The notes under the pieces were generated by a model that saw only the letters and a program-made list of their open reading frames with translations, was not told where the DNA came from and did no database searches. A stretch of DNA of 64,000 bases from Harmothoe impar (Eukaryota; Annelida; Polychaeta; Phyllodocida; Polynoidae), in the NCBI GenBank assembly GCA_947462335.1, contig OX381708.1:310001-374000 (forward strand), given 5' to 3'. This document shows, piece by piece, positions 13,840 through 59,144 of the stretch (position 1 is its first letter; the number at the start of each line of letters is the position of its first letter). Made by a program: the position numbers and the translations under genes.

Positions 13840-13884
13840 GGCCGTGTTTCTGTAAGAAAACCAGGGAAGACGTTAGTATAATTA

Positions 13885-24954: not shown

Positions 24955-25009
24955 GGTGACCCAATAAAGAGGTGAACATTCACTTCAACTCCATACAATG
25001 AGTGCTGCT
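24955..25009. repeat. Direct repeat flanking the 18-bp array, left
   Basis: About 50 bp (GTGACCCAATAAAGAGGTGA ... GAGTGCTGC) that recurs almost unchanged at 26,393-26,446 on the other side of the 18-bp array. Confidence 0.95.
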
Positions 25010-26250
25010 CCCCTCACCCTGAGCTGCTCCCCTCACCATAAACTGCTCCCCTCACCCTGAGCTGCTCCCCTCACCATGAGCTGCTCCCCTCACCCTGAGC
25101 TGCTCCCCTCACCCTGAGCTGCTCCCCTCACCCTGAGCTGCTCCCCTCACCATAAACTGCTCCCCTCACCCTGAGCTGCTCCCCTCACCATAAACTGCTC
25201 CCCTCACCCTGAGCTGCTCCCCTCACCATGAGCTGCTCCCCTCACCCTGAGCTGCTCCCCTCACCCTGAGCTGCTCCCCTCACCCTGAGCTGCTCCCCTC
25301 ACCATGAGCTGCTCCCCTCACCCTGAGCTGCTCCCCTCACCCTGAGCTGCTCCCCTCACCATGAGCTGCTCCCCTCACCATGAGCTGCTCCCCTCACCCT
25401 CAGCTGCTCCCCTCACCCTCAGCTGCTCCCCTCACCATGAGCTGCTCCCCTCACCATGAGCTGCTCCCCTCACCATGAGCTGCTCCCCTCACCATGAGTT
25501 GCTCCCCTCACCATGAGCTGCTCCCCTCACCATGAGCTGCTCCCCTCACCCTGAGCTGCTCCCCTCACCATGAGCTGCTCCCCTCACCATGAGCTGCTCC
25601 CCTCACCCTGAGCTGCTCCCCTCACCCTGAGCTGCTCCCCCACCATGAGCTGCTCCCCTCACCCTGAGCTGCTGCCCTCACACTGAGCTGCTTCCCTCAC
25701 CCTGGGCTACTCCCCTCACCCTGAGCTGCTCCCCTCACCCTGAGCTGCTGCCCTCACCCTGAGCTGCTGCCCTCACACTGAGCTGCTTCCCTCACCCTGA
25801 GCTGCTCCCCTCACCCTGAGCTGCTCCCCTCACCCTGAGCTGCTCTCCTCACCATGAGCAGCTCCCCTCACCCTGAGCTGCTCCCCTCACCATGAGCTGC
25901 TCTCCTCACCATGAGCTGCTCCCCTCACCCTGGGCTGCTCCCCTCACCATGAGCTGCTCCCCTCACCCTGAGCTGCTCCCCTCACCCTGAGCTGCTCCCC
26001 TCACCATGAGCTGCTCCCCTCACCATGAGCTGCTCCCCTCACCATGAGCTGCTCCCCTCACCCTGGGCTGCTCCCCTCACCATGAGCTGCTCCCCTCACC
26101 CTGAGCTGCTCCCCTCAGCATCAGCTTCTTCCCTCGCCCTCTGCTGCTCCCCTTATCCTGGGCTGCTCCCCTCACCCTGAGCTGCTCCCCTCAGCATCAG
26201 CTTCTTCCCTCGCCCTCTGCTGCTCCCCTTATCCTGGGCTGCCCCCTTCC
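25005..26250. repeat. 18-bp minisatellite (CTGAGCTGCTCCCCTCAC)
   Basis: Roughly 65-70 tandem 18-bp units with CCTGAGC/CATGAGC variants, becoming degenerate after about 26,110. Strongly strand-asymmetric: the plus strand is C-rich and nearly G-poor. Confidence 0.95.
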
Positions 26251-27184: not shown

Positions 27185-30100
27185 GGCAGCCCTGCCTGAC
27201 ACACTGTCACAGCCACCTGAGTAATGCATCTACCTGACACACAGCTACCTGAGTAATGCATCTACCTGACACACTGTCACAGCTACCTGAGTAATGCATC
27301 TACCTGACACACAGCTACCTGAGTAATGCATCTACCTGTCACAGCTACCTGAGTAATGCATCTACCTGACACACTGTCACAGCTACCTGAGTAATGCATC
27401 TACCTGACACACAGCTACCTGAGTAATGCATCTACCTGACACACAGCTACCTGAGTAATGCATCTACCTGACACACAGCTACCTGAGTAATGCATCTACC
27501 TGACACACAGCAACCTGAGTAATGCATCTACCTGACACACAGCTACCTGAGTAATGCATCTACCTGACACACAGCTACCTGAGTAATGCATCTACCTGAC
27601 ACACAGCTACCTGAGTAATGCATCTACCTGACACACAGCTACCTGAGTAATGCATCTACCTGACACACAGCTGCCTGAGTGATGCATCTACCTGACACAC
27701 AGCTACCTGAGTGATGCATCTACCTGACACACTGTCACAGCTACCTGAGTAATGCATCTACCTGACACACAGCTACCTGAGTAATGCATCTACCTGACAC
27801 ACAGCTACCTGAGTAATGCATCTACCTGACACACAGCTACCTGAGTAATGCATCTACCTGACACACTGTCACAGCTACCTGAGTAATGCATCTACCTGAC
27901 ACAGCTACCTGAGTAATGCATCTACCTGACACACAGCTACCTGAGTAATGCATCTACCTGACACACTGTCACAGCTACCTGAGTAATGCATCTACCTGAC
28001 ACACTGTCACATCTACCTGAGTAATGCATCTACCTGACACACTGTCACAGCTACCTGAGTAATGCATCTACCTGACACACAGCTACCTGAGTAATGCATC
28101 TACCTGACACACTGTCACAGCTACCTGAGTAATGCATCTACCTGACACACAGCAACCTGAGTAATGCATCTACCTGACACACAGCTACCTGAGTAATGCA
28201 TCTACCTGACACACTGCCACAGCTACCTGAGTAATGCATCTACCTGACACAGTCACAGCTACCTGAGTAATGCATCTACCTGACACACAGCTACCTGAGT
28301 AATGCATCTACCTGACACACAGCTACCTGAGTAATGCATCTACCTGACACAGTGTCACAGCTACCTGAGTAATGCATCTACCTGACACACTGTCACAGCT
28401 ACCTGAGTAATGCATCTACCTGACACACAGCTACCTGAGTAATGCATCTACCTGACACACAGCTACCTGAGTAATGCATCTACCTGACATACTGTCACAG
28501 CTACCTGAGTAATGCATCTACCTGACACACTGTCACAGCTACCTGAGTAATGCATCTACCTGACACACTGTCACAGCTACCTGAGTAATGCATCTACCTG
28601 ACACTGTCACAGCTACCTGAGTAATGCATCTACCTGACATACTGTCACAGCTACCTGAGTAATGCATCTACCTGACACACTGTCACAGCTACCTGAGTAA
28701 TGCATCTACCTGACACACAGCTACCTGAGTAATGCATCTACCTGACACACAGCTACCTGAGTAATGCATCTACCTGACACACAGCTACCTGAGTAATGCA
28801 TCTACCTGACACACAGCTACCTGAGTAATGCATCTACCTGACACACTGTCACAGCTACCTGAGTAATGCATCTACCTGACACACAGCTACCTGAGTAATG
28901 CATCTACCTGACACACAGCTACCTGAGTGATGCATCTACCTGACACACAGCTACCTGAGTAATGCATCTACCTGACACACTGTCACAGCTACCTGAGTAA
29001 TGCATCTACCTGACACACAGCTACCTGAGTAATGCATCTACCTGACACAGCTACCTGAGTAATGCATCTACCTGACACACTGTCACAGCTACCTGAGTAA
29101 TGCATCTACCTGACACACTGTCACAGCTACCTGAGTAATGCATCTACCTGACACACTGTCACAGCTACCTGAGTAATGCATCTACCTGACACACTGTCAC
29201 AGCTACCTGAGTAATGCATCTACCTGACACACAGCTACCTGAGTAATGCATCTACCTGACACACAGCTACCTGAGTAATGCATCTACCTGACACACAGCT
29301 ACCTGAGTAATGCATCTACCTGACACACAGCTACCTGAGTAATGCATCTACCTGACACACTGCTACCTGAGTAATGCATCTACCTGACACACTGTCACAG
29401 CTACCTGAGTAATGCATCTACCTGACACACAGCTACCTGAGTAATGCATCTACCTGACACACAGCTACCTGAGTAATGCATCTACCTGACACACTGCTAC
29501 CTGAGTAATGCATCTACCTGACACACAGCTACCTGAGTAATGCATCTACCTGACACACAGCTACCTGAGTAATGCATCTACCTGACACACTGCTACCTGA
29601 GTAATGCATCTACCTGACACACAGCTACCTGAGTAATGCATCTACCTGACACACAGCTACCTGAGTAATGCATCTACCTGACACACAGCTACCTGAGTAA
29701 TGCATCTACCTGACACACTGCTACCTGAGTAATGCATCTACCTGACACACAGCTACCTGAGTAATGCATCTACCTGACACACAGCTACCTGAGTAATGCA
29801 TCTACCTGACACACTGCTACCTGAGTAATGCATCTACCTGACACACAGCTACCTGAGTAATGCATCTACCTGACACACAGCTACCTGAGTAATGCATCTA
29901 CCTGACACACAGCTACCTTAGTAATGCATCTACCTGACACACATCTACCTGAGTGATGCATCTACCTGACACACAGCTACCTGAGTAATGCATCTACCTG
30001 ACACACAGCTACCTGAGTAATGCATCTACCTGACACACAGCTACCTGAGTAATGCATCTACCTGACACACAGCTACCTGAGTTATGCATCTACCTGACAC

Positions 30101-30562
30101 ACAGCTACCTGAGTAATGCATCTACCTGATACACAGCTACCTGAGTAATGCATCTACCTGACACACAGCTACCTGAGTAATGCATCTACCTGACACAGTG
30201 TCACAGCTACCTGAGTAATGCATCTACCTGACACACTGTCACAGCTACCTGAGTAATGCATCTACCTGACACACTGTCACAGCTACCTGAGTAATGCATC
30301 TACCTGACACACTGTCACAGCTACCTGAGTAATGCATCTACCTGACACACTGTCACAGCTACCTGAGTAATGCATCTACCTGACACACAGCTACCTGAGT
30401 AATGCATCTACCTGACACACTGCTACCTGAGTAATGCATCTACCTGTCACACTGTCACAGCTACCTGAGTAATGCATCTACCTGACACACTGTCACATCT
30501 ACCTGAGTAATGCATCTACCTGACACACAGCTACCTGAGTAATGCATCTACCTGACACACAG
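27185..30562. repeat. Mixed 32/38-bp satellite array, about 100 units
   Basis: Two unit types share AGCTACCTGAGTAATGCATC and TACCTGACACA. The long type has an extra TGTCAC before AGCTACC (38 against 32 bp), plus rarer shorter forms (ACACTGCTACC). The types alternate irregularly. TCTACCTG/GCTACCTG half-repeats within each unit suggest an ancestral shorter unit. Confidence 0.96.
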
Positions 30563-30685: not shown

Positions 30686-30749
30686 CCTTCCTGCATCTAC
30701 CATCATGCCACAACAAATAGCCCTATTTCCGTATCCTCACACCACCTCT

Positions 30750-32460
30750 CAAATTCAAGTTCAACGTACCCTTTTATATTTGTCTGATCTCTTAGCCTTC
30801 ATACATGCCAATACAGGGAATCTATTGCTAAATTACCATGGAGAGATATTGTAATCTTTTGCAATATTTAGTTTATATAAATACCATTTCATATTTTAAG
30901 CATGACACACCAAATAGTCATATTTCAAAAAAAAAAAAACCACCCCTTAAATTCAAGTTCAACGTACCCTTTTATATTTGTCTGATCTCTAAGCCTTTAT
31001 ACATGCCAATAAAGCGAACCTATTGCTAAATTACCATGGAGAGATATTGCTATCTTTTGCAATATTTAGTTCATATAAGTAGTGTGAACCATTTCATATT
31101 TTAAGCATGGCACACCTAATAGTCATATTTCCAAACCCATATATACCGCCTCTTGAATTCAAGTTTAACGTACCCTTTTATATTTGTCTGATCTCTAAGC
31201 CTTTGTCCATGCCAATACAGGGAACCTATTGCTGAATTACCATGGAGAGATATTGTTATCTTTCACAATATTCAATTCCTAAAAGCAGTGTGAACCATTT
31301 CATACTATAAGCATGACATAGCAAATAGTCATATTTCCGTGCCCCCACACCAACCCTTAAATTCAAGTTCAACGTTCTCTTTTATATTTGTCTGATCTCT
31401 TAGCCTTTATGCATGCCAATACAGGAAATCTATTGCTAAATTACCATGGAGAGATATTGTTATCTTTTACAATATTTAGTTTATTAAAATACCATTTCAT
31501 ATTTTAAGCATGGCACACCAAATAGTCATATTTCCAAATCCTCATATACCACCCCTTAAACTTGAGTTCAACGTACCCTTTTATATTTGTCTGATCTCTA
31601 AGCTTTTATACATGCCAATACAGGGAACCTATTGCTAAATTACCATGGAGAGATATTGTAATCTTTTGCAATATTTAGTTTATATAAATACCATTTCATA
31701 TTTTAAGCATGACACACCAAATAGTCATATTTCAACAAAAAACAAAAAAACACCCCTTAAATTCAAGTTCAACGTACCCTTTTATATTTGTCTGATCTCT
31801 AAGCCTTTATACATGCCAATAAAGCGAACCTATTGCTAAATTACCATGGAGAGATATTGCTATCTTTTGCAATATTTCGTTCATATAAGTAGTGTGAACT
31901 ATTTCATATTTTAAGCATGGCACACCTAATAGTCATATTTCCAAACCCATATATACCGCCTCTTGAATTCAAGTTCAACGTACCCTTTTATATTTGTCTG
32001 ATCTCTAAGCCTTTGTCCATGCCAATACAGGGAACCTATTGCTAAATTACCATGGAGAGATATTGTTATCTTTCACAATATTCAGTTCATAAAAGCAGTG
32101 TGAACCATTTCATACTATAAGCATGACATAGCAAATAGTCATATTTCCGTGCCCCCCCGACCCCCCCACCAACCCTTAAATTCAAGTTCAACGTTCTCTT
32201 TTATATTTGTCTGATCTCTAAGCCTTTATGCATGCCAATAGAGGGGATCTAATGCTAAATTACCATGGAGAGATATTGCTATCTTTTACAATATTTAGTT
32301 TTTATAAGTAGTTTGAACCATTTCATATTTTGAGCATGACATAGCAAAATGTCATATTTCCGCACCCTCACACCCTTTGAATTCAAATTCAAAACAGCCT
32401 TTTGTATTCCTCCAATCTCTAAGTCTTTATATATGCCATTGCTAAATTACCATGCACAGA
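30750..32460. repeat. About 200-bp satellite with four-monomer higher-order repeat
   Basis: The landmark CCATGGAGAGATATTG has its ATG at 30,838, 31,036, 31,242, 31,446, 31,645, 31,846, 32,052 and 32,266, with a degenerate one at 32,452, so monomers are 186-214 bp. Monomers 1-3 match monomers 5-7 (807-810 bp apart) much better than their neighbours: monomers 1 and 5 share the same A-rich insert, 2 and 6 the same ATATATACCGCCTC, 3 and 7 the same CATACTATAAGCATGACATA. This is a higher-order repeat. Confidence 0.93.
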
Positions 32461-32504
32461 TATTGTTGGCTGTAGTCAGCTATCATGCTGACCTATACGG
32501 TTTG

Positions 32505-32575
32505 ATACACTCACCCTTTAAGGGCCCCATAGTACATGCCCTTGGTCGTCATGAATGCAGCCCTGGCGACTCAGA
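32505..32575. repeat. Palindromic element fragment
   Basis: GCCCTTGGTCGTCATGAATG and CAGCCCTGGCGAC match one half of the dispersed element. Confidence 0.75.
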
Positions 32576-33004
32576 GAAGCAAGGCTATTGTTTATATATA
32601 TTCAACAGCTTGTCTGTTTTCAATCATCTGGAAACCACTTGAATTAAAAGAAGATCACAAAAAAGGTTTACATGACAAAATTTATTCACACAAACTTGAT
32701 AAAACATGTTGATGAAGCACTTGCTACAGTATGTCTAAAGTTGTTAAACTGATGATATTCTTTAGTCCTCTCATCAGAGTATACCCATGAATATATACAG
32801 AGTCTCCATCACCATGTATAATAGCCTGTATACGTGGAGGGTGGAGTGCATTGGGCTTCATGACAAATGGCCATGTTCTACAATTGATGTGCATGTCACC
32901 ACATTTGCTACCTCCTCCAAGAAGAATGTCTTAGAACTGCAGTAGTCCACAGTAGCCTTGCGTGGCTGTCCCCCCATCCCGCACCACCAGCACGGCCAGC
33001 CAAG

Positions 33005-33100
33005 CCTGACCCACTGCATTCATGCATCATGCTGACCCTGCTGGAGTGTATCAACCCCCTGTAGGTTAGGCATGATGCATGAATGCAGCACTGGCTATAA
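33005..33100. mobile_element. Dispersed palindromic element, copy
   Basis: TGCATTCATGCATCATGC (33,015) and GCATGATGCATGAATGCAGC (33,070) are inverted complements separated by GACCCTGCTGGAGTG ... CCCTGTAGG. This is the clearest paired-arm copy of the family. Confidence 0.8.
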
Positions 33101-33564
33101 AGGATTGTAGTGCATTCCATGTCGAAAGTTTAGATTTCGATGCTCAATGTGCGACCAGTGATATCCAGTGTATAGCATAAGACATGCAGTCAAGTTCCCA
33201 GAAAGCTCAAGAACAGTCCGATCGACTAGCTGTAAAAGCTTGCACAAAAATCAGAGTGTGGGCAACGCTGCTAAATTGTCCCAAGGGATGATAAACACAG
33301 TCCCTCACCGTGGTGACAAAAAAACTGTGTCACAGGTGGTGAAAAAGGAGACAATTAGGACTTTGAAACCAACTTAGTGTTGGGTTCCCTCAGTAGAATC
33401 CTTAATAACGGTTCGATTGCAAAACCCTGAAAACTGACATGTAGCCAGGACCCCTGGCAACAGGCCCTGATGCAGAGACATGGGCTGTGACCATTTCCCT
33501 AGCTGCAGCAACCATAAGCGCAATTGTCGGGCAATTGACAGACTGTGGAAGAGACCTTTCCACA

Positions 33565-33700
33565 GGTTTTAATTGTGCCCTTAGTCGTCATGTTGCATGA
33601 ATGCAGCCCTGGCGGGTAACTCGACATTGCTGCATTCAAGCATCATGCTGACCCTACAGGGTTAAGACACTCCCGAAGGGTCGGCATGATGCAGCGACGT
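33565..33700. mobile_element. Dispersed palindromic element, copy
   Basis: Order of motifs: GTGCCCTTAGTCGTCATG, TGCATGAATGCAGCCCTGG, CGGGTAACTCG, TGCTGCATTCAAGCATCATG, GACCCTACAGGGTTAAGACA, TCCCGAAGGGTCGGCATGAT. It shows the full element with a central hairpin and a second inverted CCCTACAGGG/CCGAAGGG part. Confidence 0.8.
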
Positions 33701-34344
33701 ACATGAAATCATAAAGGTTTTGACATCAGGAACTCCAGGTTTTCAGCTCTGGGAGAATCTGAGCAAGGCTAGCTTTTAGCCCCCCCCCCTGGGTTGCTGC
33801 AGTAATCTCATCACTGGACATTTTGGCAGAGTCCAATCTCTTACTTCTCGGTGGTTTAATGGGTTCATGGTCCATTACTGGTTCTTTCTTACAGTTCCTC
33901 CTGCTGGAGGAGTAAGATCGCTACCACAGCGGCAGCACCACGCCTCAGCCATAGCGATGGCTTATCAGAAAAGAACCCAATTTTGAATTCCTAACCGACA
34001 ATCAGACAGCGGGCCTACACCAGTAGACGCATCCTCTTGCTGCTGAGTTTTGAAACCAACTGTAATACGAACCTGCAGCAGCTGAGTGTCGACACCTTTA
34101 CTCATCCCGGCAGTTCTATCATGTACTAACCACCGGATAACAATTGGCGCGCGCCAGGACTGTTGTATCTAGGTATATTGACATATAAACTCTGCCACCT
34201 TTATGTAGTTAAAATAAACAGTGATATAAATGAATAATGTAGATATCTGGTTTCGGCTGATAGTTTTTGTTACGGCCGACAGTGAGCAACTCTCATCTAA
34301 AAGGCGAGGGTTTCCGAATTTTGATTTTAAAAAGATGGACGATT

Positions 34345-35873
34345 GTTGCAGTTTAATTCATGACATTCAGAGCACTAGGCAGAAATTACATTGCGTCAAC
34401 ACCAGGCTATGGCCATTGCAATGCTTTGTTTTGATTAGACAGTCGGATTCCCCCGGTCCCTACCAGTTCTAAGTTGGCTGTTGGACCACGGACGAAGCGG
34501 ATGCGCCGACCACAGTTGCCCGCAGCCGACACCGCACAGCTGAGGCGGTCCATGGGAAGGTCCCGGCGACGGTCCGAGCTTGACGCGCCGTTGCCGACGA
34601 CGTCTCGTCCAGCCCCTGCCGGTTCCAGGCCCGGTTCGCACCCCAGCCCGACCGGCCCAGCCCTTAGAGCCCACCAGAGGCTGTTCACCTTGGAGACCTG
34701 CTGTGGATATGGGTATGGTCGGGCACGAAAATCTCACCGTCTCCCCAGGTTTTTCAAGGGCCGACAGTCTTTTAGCCCTATAAGTTCGAGGATTGATTTG
34801 CAAGTCATAATAGCTGCGGATCTCCATCAGGGTTTCCCCTGCATTTGTCTTACTCAGGCATCTTTCAGGTCCCAACATGTACGCTCTTGCTTTGCCTCCT
34901 CGACGTGGTGACCGAGACAGGCCAGCAGTGCGCGGCCGCCCGGAGACATCGGATCCTGCCATGGATGCGAACGCCCTGTCACTTTCATTGCGCCTGTGCG
35001 TTTAGTAGAGCCCAATGACTTGCGCACATGTTAGACTCCTTGGTCCGTGTTTCAAGACGGGTCTGATGGGGTGCCGATCGATTCGCCACGGACCCTAGGC
35101 TTCCAAACGGGAGCACACCCAGAGCTGATCAGCCCAGCAGTCGGAACAAACTATAAACAGTCCATCCTCGACCCAACCAAACTAGGCAGGGGCCCGCGCC
35201 ATCCCGAGGGAGGAGGAAGCGGCAGCATGCTTTCCCTCGGTTCACCGGCCGGGCTCTGAGCCCAGGGACTATAACACGGGAGGCGCCTGAAGGCGTTCCG
35301 GCTACCTTTCCTCGGGACTTCTCTCCTCGTGGAAAGAGCACCCTCAGGAGCCCGCAAACACTGAAGCAGTCCCATGTGGATCTACAATCAGAAGCTCCGA
35401 GCCCTCGGAAGAGTTGAATTCCACGAGGCTACTTTGCGGTCACATCAGTTTGCCTCTGAGTGGTTTCACGTACTCTTGAACTCTCTCTTCAAAGTCCTTT
35501 TCAACTTTTCCTCACAGTACTTGTCTGCTATCGGTCTCATGTCAGTATTTAGCCTCAGATGGAGTTTACCACCCACTTTGGGCTGCATTCCCAAACAACC
35601 CGACTCCAAGGACATTTAGAGGCACGTTGGCCCTCGCCTAGACTAGAGGCCTGACACACGCTATGAGAAAGGCCCCGATCAGGAGCACTCGGACCGGAGC
35701 ACGTACCGGAGTGATCGTCCTAAAAACCACAGTTCACTGCCGCAGCAACAGGGGATTCAGTGGTGGGCTATTCCCGCTTCACTCGCCGTCACTAGGGAAA
35801 TCCTTGTTAGTTCTTTTCCTCCGCTTAGTGATATGCCTAAGTTCAGCGGGTAATCCCCCCTAAGGCGATGGAC
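34345..35873 (-). pseudogene. 28S rRNA pseudogene, 5' part only
   Basis: On the minus strand the sequence starts at GGATTACCCGCTGAACTTAG with GCATATCACTAAGCGGAGGA (conserved 28S start), passes CCCGTCTTGAAACACGGACC and AAGGAGTCTAACATGTGCGC, and ends near GTGCTCTGAATGTCA. About the first third to half of a 28S gene is present. Decay is clear: internal deletions (for example loss of the segment between CAAGGTGAACAGCCTCTGG and the GGGCTGGGCCGGTCGGG part) and many C-to-T and G-to-A changes in otherwise invariant stretches (ACCTGAAAGATGCC, TTGCAAATCAATCCTCGAAC). The remainder of 28S is missing. ORFs through this region are accidental. Confidence 0.92.
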
Positions 35874-35944
35874 CGAGGCAATCCACCCGTGAGTGAACTG
35901 ACGCTACTACGCTCAAGGTGCGCACGAGAATGGACTTCCGGACG
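35874..35944 (-). other. ITS2 remnant
   Basis: Only about 70 bases separate the 5.8S and 28S matches, much shorter than a normal animal ITS2, so it is probably deleted. Confidence 0.6.
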
Positions 35945-36105
35945 TCAACCAACCCTGAGACAGGCGGGGCCTTGGGAATGCCCAAGGCCGCAATATGCAT
36001 TCAAGATGTCGCTGCTCAATGTGTCCTGCAATTCACATTAATTAACGGAGCTGGCTCTACTCTTCATCGACGCATGAGCCAAGTGATCCATCGCTGAGTC
36101 CATTC
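35945..36105 (-). pseudogene. 5.8S rRNA pseudogene
   Basis: Minus-strand landmarks: GCGATGGATCACTTGGCTCA, TGCGTCGATGAAGAGTAGAG, TTAATGTGAATTGCAGGACA, CATTGAGCAGCGACATCTTG. The normally invariant GATGAAGAACGCAGC reads GATGAAGAGTAGAGC, and two CpGs have become TpG/CpA, so the copy is unlikely to be functional. Confidence 0.9.
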
Positions 36106-36262
36106 CGCTGCCTCCTTCCAAAGTTGGACTTTGATTGGAATTGGGTTGGGTCATGGGGCCACAGAGAAACCGACGCAAGCGATCGGGAACCGAAGCCCAC
36201 CGGTGCGCGTTGCTCTCGTCTCCGGGGTCCAAGAGAACTCTTACCAGGACGAATGACACGTT
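36106..36262 (-). other. ITS1 remnant fused to truncated 18S
   Basis: No similarity recognised. The 18S match stops at GGAATCAACGTG and the last about 250 bases of 18S (V9 and the conserved 3' end) are absent, so a deletion joins 18S directly to spacer. Confidence 0.6.
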
Positions 36263-36580
36263 GATTCCTTCAGTGTAGCACGTGCGGCCCCGAACATCTC
36301 AGGGCATCACAGACCTGTTATTGCTCAATCTCGCGTGGCTGTACGTCACTTGTCCCTCTAAAAAGTTGGTGTCGACTGGACGGACCAGGTAAATCGATGG
36401 ACTAGTCAGCAGGTCAGAGTCTCGTTCGTTATCCTAATTAACCAGACAAATCGCTCCACCAACTAGGAGCGGCCATACACCGCCACTTACCAAATCAAGA
36501 AAGACCTCTCAATCTGTCTCAATCCTAATGGTGTCCGGGCCAGGTGAGTTTCCCCGCCACGAGTCCCACCCCCCATGTAC
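36263..36580 (-). pseudogene. 18S rRNA pseudogene fragment (V7-V8 region)
   Basis: Minus-strand landmarks: GAGCGATTTGTCTGGTTAAT, GATAACGAACGAGACTCTG, GAGATTGAGCAATAACAGG, TCTGTGATGCCCTGAGATGT, CTACACTGAAGGAATCA. Upstream 18S and the 3' end are both missing, and conserved stretches carry substitutions (TTAATTAGGATAACG for TTAATTCCGATAACG). Confidence 0.9.
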
Positions 36581-36699
36581 TAATGGCACAAGGGTGGTGA
36601 CATTGTGAGGCATGTCACGAACTTTGAAGAGCTCTCATACAGAAACCGCCAGGACTTTCACCACCAAATTCGGGTTCAGGAGGAGTTTCTGGGTAGCTT

Positions 36700-39030
36700 T
36701 TCAAAAAAAAGAATTCGGAGTGATGACTTGAGGTCCAAGTGTAGGAATGACCTTTCGGTAGGTTTCAATAAGGGTATCCACTTCACGTCGAAGTATGGGC
36801 CTAGTATTTTCTCTTTTATAGAGATTTTATTCAGGGTATCCATTTCAAGTCCAAATGCAGAAATCTCGTGTAGCTAGCGGTAGGTTTCCCTGGACATCAG
36901 AGGAGGATGCACATTTAATAGCAGCAGGCTTTCCCTGGACGTCAGACAAGGATGCACGCTAGTGGCAGGCTTCCCTGGACGTCAGACAAGGATGCACGTT
37001 AGCGGAAGGCTTACTAAGAGGTTTTATTCAGAGTATCCATTACAGGTCAAAGTGCAGGAATGACTTTTCAGTGCAGTTTAATTCAGAGTATCAACCAGAG
37101 GTCCAAGTGTAGGAATTACCTTTCGTGAGGTTTAAATGAGGGTATCCACTGCAAGTGCAAGTCCAAGTATAGGCCTAGCGTCTGCTATAGAGGTTTTATT
37201 CAGGGTACCCACTTCAGGCTCAAGTGTAGAAATGGCCTTCTGAGATTTCTTTTTGAAGAGTATCCCGACGGCACATGGTAGTATCAGGGTTTGCTTGGAC
37301 GTCAGACGAGGATGCACGTTAGCAGCAGGCTTATCCTGAGGTTTTATTCAGGTCACATTTCAAGTCCAAGTGCAGGAATAGCCTTCAGCGCATGTTAGCA
37401 GTAGGGTACCTGGGCGTCAGACAAGGATGCACATTAGCGGCAGGGTTTCCCTGGACGTCAGACGAGGATGCACTTTAGCAGCAGGGTTACCTGGACGTCA
37501 GATAAGGACGCACGTTAGCAGCAGGGTTACCCTGGACATCAGACGAGGATGCACGTTAGCAGCAGGGTTACCTGGACGTCAGATAAGGACGCACGTTAGC
37601 GGGAGGGTTTCCCTGGACGTCAGATGAGGACGCACGTTAGCAGCAGGGTTACCTGGACGTCAGATAAGGACGCACATTAGCGGCAGGGTTACCCTGGACG
37701 TCAGACGAGGACGCACGTTAGTGGCATGGTTACCCTGGACCTCAGACGAGGACGCCCATTAGCAGCAGGCTTATCCAGAGGTTTTATTCAGAGCATCCAC
37801 TACAGGTCAAAGTGCAGGAATGGTCTGTGAGTGCACGTTATTTCAGAGTATCAACTAGATGTCCAAGTGTAGGAACGGCCTTTCATGAGGTTTTATTCAG
37901 GGTATCCACTTCAAGTCCTAGTGTAGGCCTAGTGTCTGTCATTTATAGAGGTTTTATTCAGGGTATCCACTTCAGACTCCAGTGTAGAAATGGCCTTCTG
38001 TGATTTCTATTTTAAGAATATCACGAGGGCACATGGTAGTAGCAGGGTTTGCTTGGATATCAGATGAGGACGCACGTTAGCGGCAGGCTTATCCAGAGGT
38101 TTTATTCAGGTCAAAGTTTAGGAATGGCCTGTCAGTGAGGTTTTAATGAGGGTTTCCCTTTCAAGTCCAAGTGTAGCCTAGTGTTGGCCTAGTATCGGTC
38201 TTATATAGAGGTTTTATTCAGGGTATCCACTTCAGGCTCAAGTATAGGAATGACCTTTTGTTAGTTCTTTTTAAAGAGTATCGACCTGAAGTCCAAGTGT
38301 AGGAACGACCTGTCATGAGGTTTTATTCAGGGTATCCATTTCAAGTCCAAGTGCAGGAATAACCTTTAGTGCCTGTTAGCGGCAGGGTTACCCTGGACGT
38401 CAGACAAGGACGCACGTTAGCAGCAGGGCTACCCTGGACGTCAGACAAGGACCCACGTTAGCAGCAGGGTTACCCTGGACGTCAGACGAGGACGCACGTT
38501 AGCTGCAGGGTTACCCTGGACGTCAGACAAGGACGCACGTTAGCAGCAGGGTTACCCTGGACGTCAGACGAGGACGCACATTAGCAGCATGGTTACCCTG
38601 GACGTCAGACAAGGACGCACGTTAGCAGCAGGGTTACCCTGGACGTCAGACGAGGACGCACGTTAGCGGCAGGGTTACCCTGGACGTCAGACGAGGACGC
38701 ACGTTAGCGGCAGGGTTACCCTGGACGTCAGACGAGGACGCACGTTAGCGGCAGGGTTACCCTGGACGTCAGACAAGGACGCACGTTAGCGGCAGGGTTA
38801 CCCTGGACGTCAGACAAGGACGCACGTTAGCGGCAGGGTTACCCTGGACGTCAGACGAGGACGCACGTTAGCGGCAGGGTTACCCTGGACGTCAGTCGAG
38901 GACGCACGTTAGCGGCATGGTTACCCTGGACGTCAGACAAGGACGCACGTTAGCGGCAGGGTTACCCTGGACGTCAGACAAGGACGCACGTTAGCGGCAG
39001 GGTTACCCTGGACGTCAGACAAGGACGACA
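36700..39030. repeat. 41-bp and related repeats beside rDNA fossil (spacer-like)
   Basis: Two families are mixed. One is 41 bp with TTAGCGGCAGGGTTACCCTG and GACGTCAGACAAGGACGCAC, present singly or in short runs from 36,880 and as a clean array from 38,368 to 39,028 (about 16 units). The other has GAGGTTTTATTCAGGGTATC and CACTTCAAGTCCAAGTGTAG. Their place directly upstream of 18S on the rDNA strand suggests derived intergenic-spacer repeats. The 41-bp unit contains the palindromes GGGTTACCC-like and GACGTC. Confidence 0.9.
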
Positions 39031-39155
39031 CCCAACTTGAATCACTTCAACTTCTGGCTGTGCTTTGCAAAGTCGCATCAACATGTAAATATTGAACACC
39101 AACAGTGAAAAAACACCTTAATCTAGAATATTACAAGTTGGATATACTGACACTG

Positions 39156-39608
39156 TTATGGAAACTGGCAATATGGGTCGTGTGCCTTGGAGCAGTGACG
39201 CATCAGCTTGCAGGTCCGGCGATCGGCGTTCTTACTCCGCGTCTCAAGGGTGAGGTGGTCGCTGTTCACGCACAACGTGGTATGGCAGAGATGGGAAACT
39301 TCAAGTTTGTTGTCTTTTGAATGAAGAATCCTTAGATCATAGTGCTTCAACATGTAGACCAGTCTGTGGACTGACATTGGCTTGTTTTTCAGGCCTAGCT
39401 CTATTCTAGTAACAGCCTTCACGCCGTATCTATTGTCTTTACCTTTGCCAGTTGCTGCCCCCGTCCACAAGAGGCAGCCACCAGCTCCCCCCACACACCG
39501 GTTATGGATCAAGACGAGTTGCTCGTCACACCAGCGCTTGAGATCAGGTTGGAAGACGCCTGTAGAGGAAATAGCTTTAAATGAGGGTTCCAGCCAAATC
39601 CACTCCAT
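39156..39608 (-). CDS. His-Cys box homing endonuclease-like protein (I-PpoI type)
   Basis: An intact 150-residue ORF with a His-Cys box. Residues 104-147 read as the family pattern S-H-L-C-H-x-T-x-C-x-N-x-x-H-L ... E-T/S ... N ... R-x-x-C ... C-x3-H-x3-C. By comparison with I-PpoI (163 residues, encoded in a group I intron of Physarum LSU rDNA; family knowledge), His106 would be the general base and Asn127 the metal ligand. Cys108, Cys113, His118 with Cys45 would form zinc site 1, and Cys133, Cys139, His143, Cys147 zinc site 2. Arg68 or Arg82 may fill the catalytic Arg role. The usual early GGCLLWTG and HRLVYMLKH segments are present. Start: first ATG in frame. The frame stays open 17 codons further up to a TAA, without another ATG. 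It lies upstream of the 18S remnant on the same strand, beyond the 41-bp repeats. No group I intron core and no terminal repeats were recognised around it. The endonuclease assignment is by motif only; activity is unknown. Confidence 0.85.
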   Translation of the reverse strand: MEWIWLEPSFKAISSTGVFQPDLKRWCDEQLVLIHNRCVGGAGGCLLWTGAATGKGKDNRYGVKAVTRIELGLKNKPMSVHRLVYMLKHYDLRILHSKDNKLEVSHLCHTTLCVNSDHLTLETRSKNADRRTCKLMRHCSKAHDPYCQFP

Positions 39609-40404
39609 GTTTACTGGGACCTTTGGATACCGTGAACCAAAAAAGTGATCAAACTGTTACCGGGGTCACAAGAAGCCCGGTCACAACTTGGATAGGGTTC
39701 AAATAGTGCTGCAGCATATAAAACAGCGCCCAATACAACTGCCTTTTAACATAATTCAAAAAAGTGATCTCAATAGCCAAAGGCCTTTTTTGAACAAGTC
39801 ATGTTTTAATTGTAATTTTACATCAAGATCAAGAAAGACTAGCAACATCTCACACTAACAATAGACTGGGGTCATATTATTAAATCCTTCCTAATCAATA
39901 TCCATCCAACCAACAACATACTAGTATGCTGGTCAGACAATCATGTCAACAAACCTGCATGGTCAGCCATCTTGGAAGTGAATCATTTCATTTCTGACCC
40001 AACCCAAATGGACCCCCAAACAATTCCTTCACAACAATCAACCATGCTTATATACATCTCGCATCATGATGAGACCTTATTCTGGCTCTATTCTCATCTC
40101 TAACACAATTTCCAAAAAAATACCAAACTATTTAGACCACTCAGAGCTCATCTGGTATTCACTGCAGACTGATTCTTTCCCTAATTATGCACTCACTCAC
40201 CCCCCACACCAAACTTGGCCACAGTCTTCTCATGACTCTCACCCCCACCAAACTTGGCCACAGTCTTCTCATGCCCAACAGCAACAAACAACCAAAAACA
40301 AACAACACTCCTAACTAACAGCAAGTCACAGCATTTTGTCTTTGGCTGCTGTAATCTGCCTGGATTGATAGATTCCTTCTCTAGCCTACATTGGAGCTTT
40401 TTTC

Positions 40405-40790
40405 AGAAAATCCGAGTGCCGAAAATTTGCGTATCGTCGTCTGCGCCGGCCTTATCATGCCGTATAGACACTGTGGCTGATCTGATGGACGTAGCCCTGA
40501 ATCTCCTCTTTCCAGCAAAGTTTGAATTTTGAAAATCGGTTGGTAAACAGCTGAGTAAATGAGAGTTTTCTCGGATATGATTTTTAACATTTTGTTCCAA
40601 TTTCCGAGTGCCGAAAATTTGCGTATCGTCCTCTGCGCCGGCCTTATTATGGCCTTGGGACACTGTGACTGCATCTAGGATTGTAGCTCTGAATCTCCTC
40701 ATTCCAGCAACGTTTGAATTTTGAAAATCGGTTGGTAAACAGCCGAGTAAATGCAAGTTTTCTCAGAAATGATTTAAAAAAAGAATGTCT
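40405..40790. repeat. About 195-bp direct repeat, two units
   Basis: CCGAGTGCCGAAAATTTGCG at about 40,412 and 40,605 starts two units sharing CTGCGCCGGCCTTAT, CTGAATCTCCTC and TTGAAAATCGGTTGGTAAAC. The two overlapping minus-strand ORFs reflect this repetition; their proteins have no recognised domain. Confidence 0.88.
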
Positions 40791-40869
40791 TCCAATTTTT
40801 CTGATTTTCAAATGTCGACGAGTTTGCCGAAAAGCGACAGGCACTCTATATAGGGCTTAGAATAGTGAA

Positions 40870-41425
40870 GAAATGAAGAGCTTACAAAATTCTGATCGAA
40901 ATGGACTATTTATATGTCAAAATCAGACAAGATTTCATTTTAATTAATTTTCTTTGACAGCCAAAAATGTGTATTTGGGTGCTATTTTCGGTTTGCTTAG
41001 CTGTCACTACAGTGACAGACCCACCCACCTACAGAGGGAGTCTACCATGCTGTACCATGTGATCAGGGAGTGGTCAGTTCTTAAACAAAGGGAGGGCATG
41101 GCAACAAATAATTAGCCCTTTCTGGTGGGGGAGGGGAATGCCAGAAATGAAGAGCAGACAAAATTCTGATCGGAATGGACTATTTACATGTCAAAAAATG
41201 GAACAAGATTTCATTTTTTGACAGCCAAAAATATGTATTGGGTGTTCATTTTCACCTTGTTGAACTGTCACAATAGTGAGAGAACCCCCTACCCACCGCC
41301 GGACCCACCCATCCAGACTACAGACTTGATTGAACCTTAGTAGTATGGCCAATATTGTGTATTGGAGTGGTCAATTTCGGTTTTTCAATTGTCACTATAG
41401 TGACAAATCCACCCACCCACGCCCA
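40870..41425. repeat. Degenerate about 250-bp direct repeats, two to three units
   Basis: ATGAAGAGC(T/A)(T/G)ACAAAATTCTGATC occurs near 40,874 and 41,148. GTCACTA(C/T)AGTGACA with CCACCCACC follows near 41,003 and 41,393, with a variant near 41,266. GTCACTATAGTGAC is a perfect palindrome. Confidence 0.8.
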
Positions 41426-41642
41426 TTGACAGAAACAGATAAACTGCTGGTGGCCAAAACTAAAATAGCACTGTTTAGAAACAAAGTTTTCTTGATGTAT
41501 TAACATTTGATCATGTAAATGTACAGTTTGACAGTCCCTTCCCATCCCCTGCTTTTAGAATTGGATCACACCCTGAACAACAACACAACACACCATACAT
41601 TCATGATTCTATTTGCTGATTTCACTTTTATTTTGCACACAG

Positions 41643-41741
41643 CATTATATTCCACCTGCCTCCGATGTGTACCACCAGACATCGTCGTCCGGTGCTACGA
41701 GTCGGTTGACGCCGTCACACGTACTGCAGTCCCCATACACG
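41643..41741 (+). CDS. Candidate exon of plus-strand gene
   Basis: A 99-bp exon between CACACAG and GTAAGC. Two frames are open; the one used here (phase 1 in, 1 out) continues into the 43,463 exon. The phase-0 frame (HYIPPASDVYHQTSSSGATS) would continue only into the short terminal exon at 41,920. Confidence 0.45.
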
Positions 41742-44612
41742 GTAAGCAACTGGGCTCAAAGTCTGACCCAGTAGGTCTACCTACCTGTGACTGAAATAAG
41801 ATAACATGCCTAAACCAGATAAGAATTGTATTTGTTTGAATTTGTTTTTTTGGTTTTTTTAATATAAAAGATTTTAATTCATGTGTCCAAAGATGTAACC
41901 TTTTGTCCTTTTATATAGGGGACTTTGTCTTCCCATGTGGTCGGTCATGAGGCTCCAAGATCAAGTTGACTTGTGACGCAGCAACACCGGAAGAGATTTA
42001 GTCGAGCATAGATGAGGCTTTTCTCCCGGATGGAAGCATCATGTGTTTACTTATAATACCTGCATGTTAACTCTTAGAAGACTTCCCTGTGTAGAATATC
42101 ATGTATTTCCTTAAGGTGTATAAGGGTGAGGCTTCTCTCACAGATAAAGAGGATGGCATAAATGTATTAATGTGTCATGCCCTTGGTCGTCATGATGTAT
42201 CAATGCAGCCCTGCTGAGTAACTCTCCAGTGCTGCATTCATGCATCATACTGTTTGTGGGTTTTTTTACTCTCGAAGGATCATCATGATGCACCTAGGCA
42301 ATCCCAGCGTGTAACTTTCCAGCACTGCATTGGTGCATCACAACAACTGTATGGTGAGTCCCCCTGGTGTGGAGTGTCTGAACTGCCTCAACTATTTCTT
42401 GACAGTGCTGCCATCTGTCTTACCATAAAACCTCGCGTATAACCCTAACTCTCGTATTAGCCGCACCCCGACTTTGGGCCGACCCTATAAGCCGCACCAG
42501 AGATCTGATTATGGTGCCTTTAGCACTGTACCATAGTAGCAAAAACTTGTGTATAACCCGCACCCTGACTCTGGGTCTATCCTATAAGCCGCGCTGCCGA
42601 TCTGAAAAGCGGCGGCTTATATGTGAGGTTTTACGGTAGTTGACCTGTTATGAGGCCCTGTATCTATGTTATTCAATGATTCATGTGATTTGAAATGAAA
42701 TAACCATGACCAAACATAGTCTGTGTCTGTCTCTTACTGTTATAAACTCTACATGTAATGCCGGGGAAAGTTTCAAATTGAAAACCCACAAATTAAACAC
42801 AGTAGAAAAAGGAGGCAAGTTGTGATTGATTGAGCCGTTTATTTCTGTACAGCAGACAATATCTTAATTTCACACAATCTGGAGAACAGTAAACAAAATA
42901 TATACTTTACAAGATAACATGTGATACAATGTCGCACACATAAAATGTCATAGTCAATGAATACAAACTGTGAGTTGTCAACTAGTGCTCTAGAAAGCTT
43001 GTTAAAAGTGCTGGACGGTATCGGGACGGCGCTGCGGAGGCACCGTGTTTCTTTTAGTGGGTCGAGTTGAGAGTTGACTTGTACCTCCCCGTGCTTCCTC
43101 CAGGGGGGGCTGCGGTCAGCTGTCTGACACGCTGCAGGTAAAAGTGGGTCAAGTTCCAAGATGTAAAGCAGTATTACAATCTCACACACCCTGCATGACA
43201 TGAAAAGGTGACGGTGGAGGGTCGGTACAAAAATAGCCCCATGCTCTGAAGTACTCGGCAACTATCACTCCTGAACCATAACCTGCTAGGTTACTGCACT
43301 TCTTTGGTTCTTTTATATACAGAACTTATCCATGGAATTCTAGAATACAGCAATGGAAACATGTGTAATGGTATATTCAGGTAATACAGGATAGGCTTAC
43401 AGCAAATATGATAATAATAAAGAGAGTGGTTCATGCTATTATGTTGTCTTTAAATTTAACAGTAGCGAAACCTTTAAGAGGTCCTCTCACCAAGAGTGTA
43501 CTGGACACTGTAAACTGGTCAACTCATGAGGAGCTGGTTACTGGGGAGAGGGCCGCTTTAAACAGACCAGTTTCTGGGACTTTGTGTGAGAAGCTTGGAG
43601 GGTGAGGTTTACTGCCCATGCTGCTGCCTAGAACAGGCAGCAGCAGTGAGGGGCGGCAGGCAGGGGCGGCAGGCAGGTCTTCAGGGTGAAGCTCTATATG
43701 ACCTTGTAGTTTGTACATTGTGCTGCTACCTGTTTGGTCCCTAGATCATCAGTCAAAACGACAGGGGAGAATCCCCGGCTGCTAACAGCTAGGTGTTCCT
43801 CCTGTCACGGTGAGATCTATCTCGCTACTGAAGGGTACACTTTGGGGTCAGCGCGGCTTTCACACGTTACATGGTAAATAAGACGGTCTACACTACGCAG
43901 CATGCGCTGTCTATATACTAAGGGGCTGACGGGGCAGGCACAAACAGAGATGACGTGAAGAGGTGAACAAACCTACCAGCAGTCTGTACCATCAGAAGCC
44001 AACACAGAGTTGGTTCTGTACAAGTCTTCCTCCTCTGGCACCCTGCACACAGCTTCCACCCTCATGTGGTGTGCAGAGGGTGCTGAGGGTGATGTCTGGG
44101 CGCACCGCCCCCGGTTAGTAGTAGTTACATGACATAGTACATACCCACGCAGCATCATCAGTATAATCCAAGTCATTCTAATACAACGCAAGTCACTGCT
44201 AATACAATGTAGGTCGCTACAATAGATACAACATGTGTTCCCCATCCTGTGCTGGACTTGAAGGTCGTTTACTGACAGAAAACTGTGGTGTTAGTTTACT
44301 GCAGAATGGGTCTCGGTGACCGCACTCCGCTGACCTTACTGGCACGGTGTTCAAGGATGGTTGCTCCAGCATCAGATGACACTTTCTGGTCTCAGTAACA
44401 ACAGTTAATTTGATATTTGTACTTCTTCTCCCAAACATAAATACATTTTCTTACTATGAAACATTTGATACAAGGCTCCTATTAAACCACTCATTGGAAA
44501 ACTAAAATTCTGACTGTTTTTTTCAAGGTTTGCCACTCTGCCTGGAAACTACAAGCCTGATACAGACTCAGAGGACGTTTACATGAAATGTGAATCCTGC
44601 CGTATTGAATGA
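41643..44612 (+). CDS. Unrecognised plus-strand protein, C-terminal exons
   Basis: Three exons join in phase: 41,643-41,741 (LYSTCLRCVPPDIVVRCYES then VDAVTRTAVPIH), 43,463-43,601 (AKPLRGPLTKSVLDTVNWST then HEELVTGERAALNRPVSGTL and CEKLG) and 44,528-44,612 (FATLPGNYKPDTDSEDVYMK then CESCRIE, stop TGA). Junction codons are G|TA (Val) and GG|G (Gly). Splice sites are good: CACACAG|CA, CACG|GTAAGC, TTTAACAG|TA, GGAGG|GTGAGG and TTTTTTTCAAG|G. The exon at 26,559 fits upstream in phase. I do not recognise the family. The end is rich in Cys and acidic residues. An alternative last exon could start at 41,920 (TATATAG|GGG). The gene would end tail-to-tail with tub copy 2. The 5' part is not found, and without homology this remains a prediction. 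Confidence 0.5.
42172..42345. mobile_element. Dispersed palindromic element, copy
   Basis: ATGCCCTTGGTCGTCATGAT, CAATGCAGCCCTGCTGAGTA, ACTCTCCAGTGCTGCATTCA, TGCATCATAC, then CTCGAAGGATCATCATGATG. Same motif order as the 33,565 copy. Confidence 0.8.
42418..42643. mobile_element. MITE with inverted termini and TA flanks
   Basis: The left end TACCATAAAACCTCGCGTAT and the right end (complement) TACCGTAAAACCTCACATAT match at nearly all positions, giving an element of about 225 bp. The interior has two copies of CCGCACC ... GACTTTGGG / GACTCTGGG ... CCTATAAGCCGC, so it is itself a near direct repeat. TA at both outer edges suggests a Tc1/mariner-like mobiliser (inference). No transposase is encoded. 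Confidence 0.8.
42815..43136 (-). other. Possible terminal exon of a minus-strand gene
   Basis: On the minus strand TTTTACCTGCAG precedes an open stretch, and an AATAAA lies at 42,843-42,838 near the presumed end. One frame reads RVRQLTAAPPGGSTGRYKST then LNSTH stop; another reads on with the exon candidate at 43,980 to an early stop. No homology is recognised, and it would be interleaved with the plus-strand gene, so one of the two models may be wrong. Confidence 0.25.
43463..43601 (+). CDS. Candidate exon of plus-strand gene
   Basis: 139 bp, with a pyrimidine-rich acceptor (CTTTAAATTTAACAG) and donor GGAGG|GTGAGG. The peptide has balanced composition (TKSVLDTVNWSTHEELVTGE), which supports coding. 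The antisense strand also has a long ORF here, which I consider the shadow. Confidence 0.5.
43979..44093 (-). other. Possible coding exon on minus strand
   Basis: Acceptor GTGCGCCCAG with a CTACTAAC branch-site match upstream, and donor TGCTG|GTAGGT. One frame encodes SAPSAHHMRVEAVCRVPEEE then DLYRTNSVLASDGTDC. Composition looks coding, but no family is recognised and its partners are uncertain. Confidence 0.25.
44528..44612 (+). CDS. Candidate terminal exon of plus-strand gene
   Basis: Strong acceptor TGTTTTTTTCAAG. Encodes FATLPGNYKPDTDSEDVYMK and CESCRIE before TGA. It lies 84 bp before the start of the second large-repeat copy. No poly-A signal was found between the stop and 44,697. Confidence 0.5.
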
Positions 44613-44874
44613 GGGCATTACGTCATGGTGTGTCGGTGTGTGTGTCTGGTGTGGGCGTCGTATAACAGCGTATGATAACAGGTTTAGCAGGCTGCGCCGT
44701 GCTACGTACATACTGTGTCTAATACTGCACCGCTGTGTGACGGATCTGACACCTTTGTGCAGCCTATAACAGACAGGTCAGCTCACATCGAGCCGTGTAA
44801 AACTGGAACTGTCAGGGTATGCCATGTCAGAAACCCTCTGCTGTAAAACACCATGGGGCCATAGTTAAACCCGC

Positions 44875-44958
44875 AGGTCTCGGTACCCCTCCAGCGGCAG
44901 TCGGAGTGGAGTCGGGACAGGTACTCAGCGCTATATATAGGGGCACTGGGCCTTTAAG
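44875..44958. mobile_element. Short interspersed element, copy-2 counterpart of site 1
   Basis: Orthologous position of 178-262 in the second large-repeat copy, nearly identical to it. Confidence 0.5.
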
Positions 44959-46768
44959 CTATTTCAATCTCTGTATGACTGGTCCTTGATGTAATCAGAT
45001 TTTGTTTAGTCAAGTGTCACATTATTTTCTTCAAAGATGAACAATCCCCTAACAAAAACTCACAATATCTATATTGACGGTGGTCCTGGAAAATCACATA
45101 TTCTTTTCAATCTCTAATTTAGATTCAAGATGAGGTGCTGGGTGCGGTTGGTTTTGTGGATTGTGACAAAGCAGGCGCACATGGCCCTCGTGGCAAACAT
45201 AGCAGAAGCGGCCTAAACGGCATTTCATGTTGTTTCATACGCAATACTCAACATAAGTAATCCAATGGGGGTAAAAAAACAACATAGCAACAGCAAGTAT
45301 ATCACACCTGTGGGACTGCATGCAGGTCATCCCTAAATACACAGGAACCACCACAAAGTCTGCCGCTGACTTGGTGTTCCACCTGGTCAAAGCCACAACT
45401 AGATCAATGCGGGCGGCAAATATAGACCAATGTCATTGTGACTGGCTCTAAGCATAATGACTTTGTAAAACAAACTGCTGTCTGTCACTGCCTCCATAGC
45501 CTCCTGTGGATACATCAAAGAGGAATGTGAACTAGAAGCAGGGGTAGGTAGATGATGTGTGCGGTGGGGGTGGGAGACATGGCTGGATGCGGTCTGCAGA
45601 ATGGGCTGATGAGGGATGAAGGTGTACATGACATGATGAAGGATCTACACACAGCCTCCTCCGTGTCACACATTGTGGCACAGAGTCAGCCACCTGCTGG
45701 AATGGATACATCGTACAGAAACCACCGCCTCCTATTGTCACATCAGATAATAATAACAATAATAATAACAGTTACACGGATAACCTGGACTAACGCTTCA
45801 TACAATGTCTGCTACCTACACAAATCTGGGGGTAAAAGGAATTCCATGTCTATCCAGCTGTGAACTTGATACAACATAGTAACACAGGATGATGGGGTGG
45901 GGCCAAACTGAGGACTGGATTATGTAATGCACTGTATATCACCACATGGGGGAATAGACTGAGGACTTTATATCAATATAACATTGTGTATATCACTGGT
46001 GACTATATGCTTTAGTGCTGCTCAGAGTATCGGTGTCGTTGACCTCCCACGGCAGCTTGTTCCCATGTTGGGGGGATCCTGACCACTCGGTCTACAAGAG
46101 GGGCCGTGTGTCAGGCGCCATAACGTTCTCAGGTAGGCAATACGGCGCATGCACAGTAAACCGTTGGGACAGTAAAAACTACAAATATCCATACATATAT
46201 ATATAATTATCTTACGATAGAGACTCATACAAAACTTGTCTTTCTAAAATGCTCCTCCAATATCACTTACAAACCCTTTGGGATAAAAGCGTCTCCCGTA
46301 GTGTGAGAAAATAGTGGGTGTTGAAATCAGCATGAGTCTGGGTGATGCGTGCTGGGTGTGCCCTCCTCACCCACCGCCACCCCCGCGTGCACGCCGTCTG
46401 TCACAGGGCACTACCAACTCCACGTCTCTCAAGTAAAAATATATCTTGTTGTGGGACACGGCGAGGGGTAAGAAGAAGAGTGGTCCAGGTGTGATATACA
46501 GAGTCAGTGAGGATGCTGAAGGTAGCATGCAGCAAACCCGACAGCTGTGAGACAAGGTGTTGTCACCACTGCTGGCTGGCAGTGGGGTGGGGGCTGTCAG
46601 GTTGGCTGCCCTACCACCACTCTCTGCCCGGGCAGCACATAATACACCCCGCAGGTGACTACTTTGTGGAATGGTCGACTGTTTGTTCTGAAATGTCTCC
46701 AACTCGGACAATAAGATAAACACAGGAGGGCCGCTGCATGGAGGGTCGACTGGCGGGAGGCAGGGCGC

Positions 46769-46902
46769 TCATTCACAGGCCAGCTTACTGTCAAAGCTGC
46801 TCAGGGCGACGCCAAAGGCCTGCACGGCACACATGGGGTAGTTGTAGTCCATGGTGAAGACTTCCTCAGCCACACGACCAAACTGCATCACAATGTAGTC
46901 AA
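46769..46902 (-). CDS. tub: tub copy 2 terminal coding exon 12
   Basis: Identical to copy 1 exon 12, stop TGA at 46,769-46,771. Confidence 0.97.
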
Positions 46903-49900
46903 CTGTAGGGGCACAACACAATACAAGGTCAGATTAAATCATCACATAGCACACATGCACAATCTGAGGTAGACATCCGTACAATCAAAGTTTACTTTTC
47001 TAATGACTCAGTGGTAGACAATGGTTCATGATTTATTATCTCTATTTATAGAAAAGAAAGCGGCTTAAAGGTGTTGATCTCGGTACACCTCCAGTGGCAG
47101 TCGCCGTGGAGCCGAGACAGGTACTCAGCCCTATACATAAGGGCGCTGGGGATTTAACTTAATCTATTGAAAGTGCAACACCATACTATCTTCAGCAATA
47201 TTCAAACTCTTTCCTCAGTGCACAATGCTCACTACACCCTTGTGCACATAGCTTGTCCTCCTGGTGAAGAACCTCAGCCACTTTAAGGCTGTATGGAGTC
47301 TAACACAGGCTAACTTAGTACAAGCTACTCACCATCATTGTCATGAACAATTTGGAAATTCTTCACGGAGGCTTGTGTAACGCGCCCGTGGAAGTTAAGG
47401 ACGTAGGACTGTGTGTCTGAAAGCAACAAACAAATAGGGTCAGTCTCACAATTCAACCATTTACAATGTACATTCTTAATACATGGATATGACATGGATT
47501 TTTTGTTTTACTCTGATTCATGAAAGTGCTGATTAAAAATGGGAGAATGTGATTCACTAAACTCATGTGCTAATGCACACATCAGGTCTATGCTGCATTA
47601 TCTAGGGGCACATTCCACATAGTTGTCAGGTAAGACACCTCTATTAAAAGCTGTTTTGTTCAGATATAGAGCCTGGTGCTGCAGTATTCATTCTGCTAAC
47701 CATGTTCTGCTAATGAACCTTTTACTAAGTGATTCATAATGCCCCTTTTGTATGCTGATAACAAGATTAGCCGCATGTTCTATAACTGCCTCCCACACAC
47801 CCCGTACCAAGGTACACTGTGTATAACTGCCTCCTACATGTAATATATCAAGGTGCGCTGTGAGTGAGTCTTATTTATAATGGCAGACCATGTGGTCTAC
47901 AAGACATCCCAGGTTATATAATCTACTGTGGGTAAGAAGACAGAACACAGGCTAAGTAAACAGACCTTCATTCCAGACTGGTGTCTTATTGTGTAGTTCC
48001 AGCAGGTTCTCCATATTCTTGTTCTTCCATCTCGATATCAAACCATCATGGTCCTAAAACACCAGAACAACAAGATATCAAACCTGTGTGCTATTAAAGT
48101 ACTAAGTGACCAGAATAAAGAGGTCATTATAAATACTTGTTATTATATAGCATAGAATACCACATTATGAGTTATCATGACTTACATTTTTAGGTTTGAT
48201 GTCGACTCGCTTTTGGTCCAGGTTCATACCAGGGATGACGACCGTCATTTTCCGTGGTCCTTTAAACCCGAGAACATTTGTTTCCTGCAAAAGAAAACAA
48301 ATTAATTTAAATGCAATGTATCGATATCTTTAATATTAATTTGCAATACAATTTGGAGATATCTAGTTTGGTCAAGTTTCAAATTTTACAGCATTCCTTC
48401 AGTTTTAGAATGCTGAAGCAATGACAACCTAATTGGCTGATAATCAAAGTGCTGATTTTAGGTATATGCCTTATGTCATTATCTTATATTTGTAATTAAC
48501 ACACAAGAGTCAACCTATGAAAGGGTATTAAAGTCTACTTACATATACAGCGGCGGCCATTTCACAGCGGAGATTGCTGGTGTCAGAGCCGTGGTTCTTT
48601 GGACTGTCGCCTCCATCAAACACGGTGAACTGTGTGCCCAGGAGGTTAGATCTGCAGAAGAGAACAAAACACACATGTACATTACAGTCTCTGACACCAA
48701 ATTATGATGTATCAAAGCACCCAGTTAGCACGTAACGCTAGGCTGCCTCAACACTATGCCTAACACTCAGTACAACTGGCTGAAAGGGTAATTTATTCTT
48801 TGTACAAATCTCCCACCGTTCCAAATTATTTGATTTTCTGCATGGCAGTACACAGGGTCAACTAATTTCAAGTGAGGTAACTACAAACCTGAGTTTGCCG
48901 ACGAATGCGTCTCCCCCGCGGGACAGGTCTGTGGGGTCGGTGGAGATGAGATAGTTAGAGGTGGCACTCTTCTTACGTTTCCGTGCAGCTAACAAGAATA
49001 CCTGACAACAACAAAATACAGTTTATTGCTCAGATTCTGTGGTATGTAGGTACATAGACATAGTATCCACATCCTTTACATGTCAATGACCATTGTGATG
49101 AAGGTAGGTGATTAATTCAGTATTGACAAATGTTGAAAAGCCATTAAAAATTGGGAGTGTTGATGCATACACAATATGCTAATTCATACAATGTAAGTGT
49201 CAGGTACATGTTAGGATGAGCCTGGTACACCTGGACATGCGGCTTGTGTCTAGTACATCCTGGACCACCCCTCGGTGAGCCGTGTGTCTTTACTATATAA
49301 CAAATAGTACACAGTGTTCTCTATGATGCAGTCTGTGGCCAGCCGATATAAAGAGTGGATTCTTTATACCCAAGGCAGCTGAGGAAAGTGCAAGGAGATA
49401 TTTAAAGGAGTCTAAGTAGAATAACTACAAGATATTTTACTTGTGACTATGAAGATTATAGGTTTTTAAAATCAGTATCACCTTTAATGCAGACTTAAAG
49501 TCAAATCTTACTTAGGACAACTTAGACATGGCAATCTTCAATTTATTTTGTGTATTACATGAAGAAATATGTTAATGTAACTATCTGCTGCTACACGGCT
49601 TCAGTCCACACCACGCCTCGCTATACTCCACTGTACACCACTACTTATCCACTGCTAGGTCACGCAGGTGTTACTTTGTCACACAGAAAGAGCTGATAAT
49701 CAGACACGGGCAGACGCAGCCACCCAGGGTGTCAGGGGGTTAGTTTACACTTACACCACCAGGTGAGGTCACTGTTGTCATGGTAACCAGGTGGCTAACA
49801 GCTTGTTGTTGGTATTGTATTTATTGTATTGGATGCTGTGTACGGCCTTTACGACATGACTTAACAATGCAGTGAATCATGGGTCACTACGTATAGAGAG

Positions 49901-59099: not shown

Positions 59100-59144
59100 G
59101 GCCGTGTTTCTGTAAGAAAACCAGGGAAGACGTTAGTATAATTA

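Follow-up and report, generated by a model that had tools for sequence, protein, structure and literature searches.

I-PpoI-like nucleases are carried by KolobokP DNA transposons in seven animal phyla, with three Branchiostoma species as the only known hosts within Chordata (Kojima and Bao 2022, PMC9587614). In these elements the nuclease gene is convergent with a DDD/E transposase gene, and both lie between long terminal direct repeats (LTDRs) of about 450 or 660 bp (PMC9587614). Kojima and Bao regard the nuclease as likely derived from an intron-encoded homing enzyme and proposed that it helps the element to multiply, a role that they themselves call speculative (PMC9587614). The 64-kb stretch of contig OX381708.1 analysed here (the window) contains an open reading frame (ORF) for a nuclease of this kind, which probably represents a truncated copy of a KolobokP transposon, with a probability of about 0.6 judged from the comparisons below.

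The ORF starts at an ATG and runs uninterrupted for 150 aa, so the intact frame described in the initial annotation was confirmed; the same frame stays open for another 16 codons upstream. Within the window the ORF is a single copy, as all other tblastn matches had E values of 3.2 or worse. A Pfam search placed it in PF05551, the zinc-binding loop region of homing endonucleases (E = 3e-13; 50.6 bits, with the cut-off at 27), and HNH_3 fell below its own cut-off (17 versus 24.8 bits). I-PpoI was reached weakly when solved structures were searched with the single sequence (E = 0.062), and a profile of the family alignment A3, described below, matched it at E = 5.5e-8. Structural alignments with I-PpoI (PDB 1a73, 1a74 and 1evw; encoded in a Physarum polycephalum group I intron) showed that the ORF shares the I-PpoI fold, although the two are only 15-17% identical over these alignments. 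The HNH nucleases of phages (Mycobacterium phage HNH endonucleases; I-HmuI, 1u3e) belong to the same His-Me finger superfamily. The ORF matched 40 of 50,697 phage records by tblastn, every match being below 60% identity, and the one phage protein inspected (L002) has DHLC where the ORF has SHLC. These results indicated that the ORF belongs to the I-PpoI (His-Cys box) group and encodes a putative zinc-stabilised DNA endonuclease for which cleavage activity is predicted.

Read from its sequence, the PF05551 residue set of the ORF is complete, with the catalytic His, the metal-binding Asn and all eight Cys/His ligands of zinc (Table 1). In an I-PpoI-like protein the small fold is stabilised by two zinc sites and cleavage is carried out by a homodimer, as would be expected of the ORF product. 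By the same chemistry, H106 is expected to activate water and N127 to help hold the divalent metal. C45 presumably serves as a zinc-1 ligand, and we take it to be the counterpart of I-PpoI Cys41. Residue roles were transferred from I-PpoI by alignment, partly by way of PMC9587614.

Table 1 Features of the nuclease locus and its neighbourhood (window positions).
Feature	Position	Strand	Basis
I-PpoI-type His-Cys box (His-Me finger) nuclease ORF, intact, 150 aa	39156..39608	-	ORF list, PF05551, alignment, structure comparison
His-Cys box, residues 103-147	39168..39302	-	alignment A3 and column counts
S105, H106 (catalytic His), E122, N127 (metal)	within 39168..39302	-	
Zinc 1 ligands in the His-Cys box: C108, C113, H118	within 39168..39302	-	
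Zinc 2 ligands: C133, C139, H143, C147	within 39168..39302	-	
C45 codon, presumed first zinc-1 ligand	39474..39476	-	kept in 25/26 rows of A3
41-bp minisatellite array, 128 bases from the ORF stop codon	38375..39027	.	repeat search
Small subunit (SSU) rRNA piece, model positions 1194-1488	36568-36286	-	Rfam
5.8S rRNA	36102-35950	-	Rfam
Large subunit (LSU) rRNA piece	35850-34673, or 35873 to 34000 (edge of searched stretch)	-	Rfam

A first protein search with the ORF returned one relative, P0001 (86% identity, 99% query coverage). P0002 was added by a second search with the ORF and P0001 as queries, and a third, with three queries, gave 114 candidates, of which 27 proteins reached E ≤ 10 and 25 reached E ≤ 1.9e-3. 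PF05551 was present in 26 of the 27. The longest contigs bearing these relatives ranged from 648 to 809,654 bases, with 23 of 27 under 5,000; P0022 and P0025, which have sequence in common and equal-sized contigs, may be one gene. Alignment A3 comprised the ORF and 25 of the 27 relatives (26 rows, some of them fragments). Seven columns were kept in all 26 rows (Y61, S105, H106, C108, C113, H118 and E122), H81 was kept in 25 like C45, and R82, N127 and C133 were kept in 24; C147 was found in 23, C139 in 22 and H143 in 20. Together with the PF05551 match, these counts bore out the earlier observation that the whole His-Cys box, including Cys45, is present at every catalytic and zinc position that can be aligned. 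A tree of 22 rows placed the ORF with P0001, P0002 and P0003 in a well-supported clade and left the rest largely without resolution.

The ORF and the KolobokP nucleases are alike in being small, I-PpoI-like, free of an intron and located in an animal nuclear genome, and in conserving one S, two H, one E, one N and eight H/C residues; the likeness is to the published description of the KolobokP nucleases. The 5.8S sequence of the window is 82.6% identical to that of human versus 70% to that of yeast or plant, which favours an animal host, and the metazoan host assumed in the initial annotation is thus probable. The surprise then expressed at a His-Cys box nuclease in an animal is largely answered by KolobokP (PMC9587614). 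A literature search on the KolobokP name returned that paper as the only match, the PF05551 family name gave no match, and the titles and abstract openings of the part of the matches covered named no His-Cys box enzyme of an animal nuclear genome apart from those of KolobokP. Because KolobokP is the sole animal vehicle of such a gene that was found, a truncated KolobokP copy is probably the best account of the ORF, and a mobile element of some kind is its most likely source. Such a copy would have lost, or would never have had, the remainder of the element, and a minisatellite now adjoins it. In the full element, as Kojima and Bao speculate, the nuclease would cleave within the terminal repeats or at them, and repair would multiply or reinsert the element.

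Several observations weigh against a KolobokP origin. Conserved residues do not tell KolobokP nucleases from intron-encoded ones (PMC9587614), and the tie to KolobokP is a likeness of kind. Neither LTDRs nor a transposase domain was found around the ORF. A blastn comparison of 32500-39155 with 39609-50000 gave no direct repeat as long as an LTDR; the top pair covers 118 bp at 76%. Inverted pairs of at least 14 bases were absent from 39028-40420 at the first setting, and a search with smaller seeds gave seven weak pairs there (76-92% complementary), which were taken for chance matches and not for element ends. The transposase would be expected at positions below those of the ORF, on the plus strand; on that side lie 128 bases past the stop codon, then the 41-bp minisatellite and further gapped arrays down to 36873. 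None of 35 flanking ORFs (stop to stop, at least 60 aa, in 32440-34000, 36560-39155 and 39609-44697) carried a transposase domain in Pfam, which may lack a Kolobok model, and their weak matches (E = 0.035 or worse, under the cut-off) were unrelated. An intact KolobokP element is therefore not present at this locus. The relatives, read as single proteins, do not demonstrate that the gene multiplies within a genome. The ORF and P0001, both 150 aa, form a gap-free alignment with 22 differences, and all of the 15 key sites are unchanged. Among 5000 neutral simulations of this pair, made under one mutation model with indels left out and the 15 sites picked from the family alignment, 33% of runs were free of stops, 7% were free of key-site changes and 2.3% were free of both, which hints at past constraint in the nuclease lineage. 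The changes were ordinary in their mildness, since 17% of neutral runs were at least as mild.

This constraint signal does not separate selection on a mobile element from selection by the host. The initial annotation had offered a free-standing or a domesticated endonuclease, and the second of these gained no positive support. A domesticated nuclease gene, maintained by selection because it serves the host, would agree with the intact frame, the complete active site and the unchanged key sites, but mobile-element proteins show an identical conservation pattern and the locus is rich in repeats and close to an rDNA pseudogene, so that domestication is improbable. The first suggestion fits the window better: an intact ORF near which no intron, transposase domain or terminal repeats came to light is what would be expected of a homing endonuclease gene of the His-Cys box type that is free-standing, or is cargo of some mobile element distinct from KolobokP, and that spreads by cutting intergenic or repeat DNA. 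The literature matches covered, among which KolobokP turned up, showed no such animal element, however, and the relatives, read as single proteins, gave it no backing; it is possible but doubtful. If truly free-standing, the gene would be, to our knowledge and judged by the literature matches covered, the first His-Cys box homing gene known in animals that is not part of a transposon. If instead it is derived from KolobokP, it extends by one orphan nuclease copy the record of a transposon type that has been proposed to behave as a homing element as well. The orphan state of the nuclease is the single loose end; the kind of protein is already known. The cutting site of the intact 150-aa protein could be measured, which would bear on the published but unproven proposal that the ends of the element itself are the target of the nuclease.

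The partial and degenerate rDNA pieces at 34000-36568, beside minisatellites, apparently form an rDNA pseudogene. They lie 2.6 kb from the ORF on the same strand, and intron-encoded His-Cys box enzymes reside in rDNA, so the ORF could be the remnant of a group I intron and its homing endonuclease, with the rDNA as former host. The I-PpoI gene sits in such an intron, whereas none was found at the ORF: an Rfam search of 34000-42500, with matches admitted up to E = 1, returned no group I intron, in agreement with the lack of an intron core noted initially. In addition, minisatellites intervene, the ORF leaves the rRNA pieces found uninterrupted, and the I-PpoI site is not above chance in the window, with 2 matches at 3 mismatches versus 1.55 expected. 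An intron remnant is thus very improbable, and, since neither an intron nor an excess of I-PpoI sites was found, the nearness of the rDNA to the nuclease may be chance.

The 41-bp unit (36917-39030) contains a palindrome of 13 bp, CAGGGTTACCCTG, and 15 of the 24 units without gaps preserve it intact. Were the ORF product a selfish endonuclease, freed from both intron and transposon, it might cut nearby repeats and thereby both expand the minisatellite and promote the copying of its own gene. Conservation of the palindrome (95%) barely exceeds that of the remainder of the unit (92%) and so gives no support for cutting of the 41-bp unit by the nuclease; this scenario is the least probable of those considered.

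Long repeats of about 93-99% identity, offset by about 45 kb, join 1-17674 with 44697-63210 among the matches listed, and reflect either a segmental duplication in tandem or the joining of two haplotypes by the assembly. The presence of a large part of the window twice is possibly an assembly fault, and contamination or misassembly could have imported a protist or fungal gene; the GC content of the ORF (51%) nevertheless resembles that of its surroundings (49% in 38001-40000), there is no sequence break beside it and the window is without any N, which makes an imported gene quite improbable.

A near-dimer of a 192-bp unit (88%) occupies 40411-40775, 800 bases from the ORF start. Dense minisatellites or satellites occur at 20521-23866, 25004-26247, 27208-30562, 30741-32438 and 36873-39027, the first consisting of 61.9 copies of a 54-bp unit.
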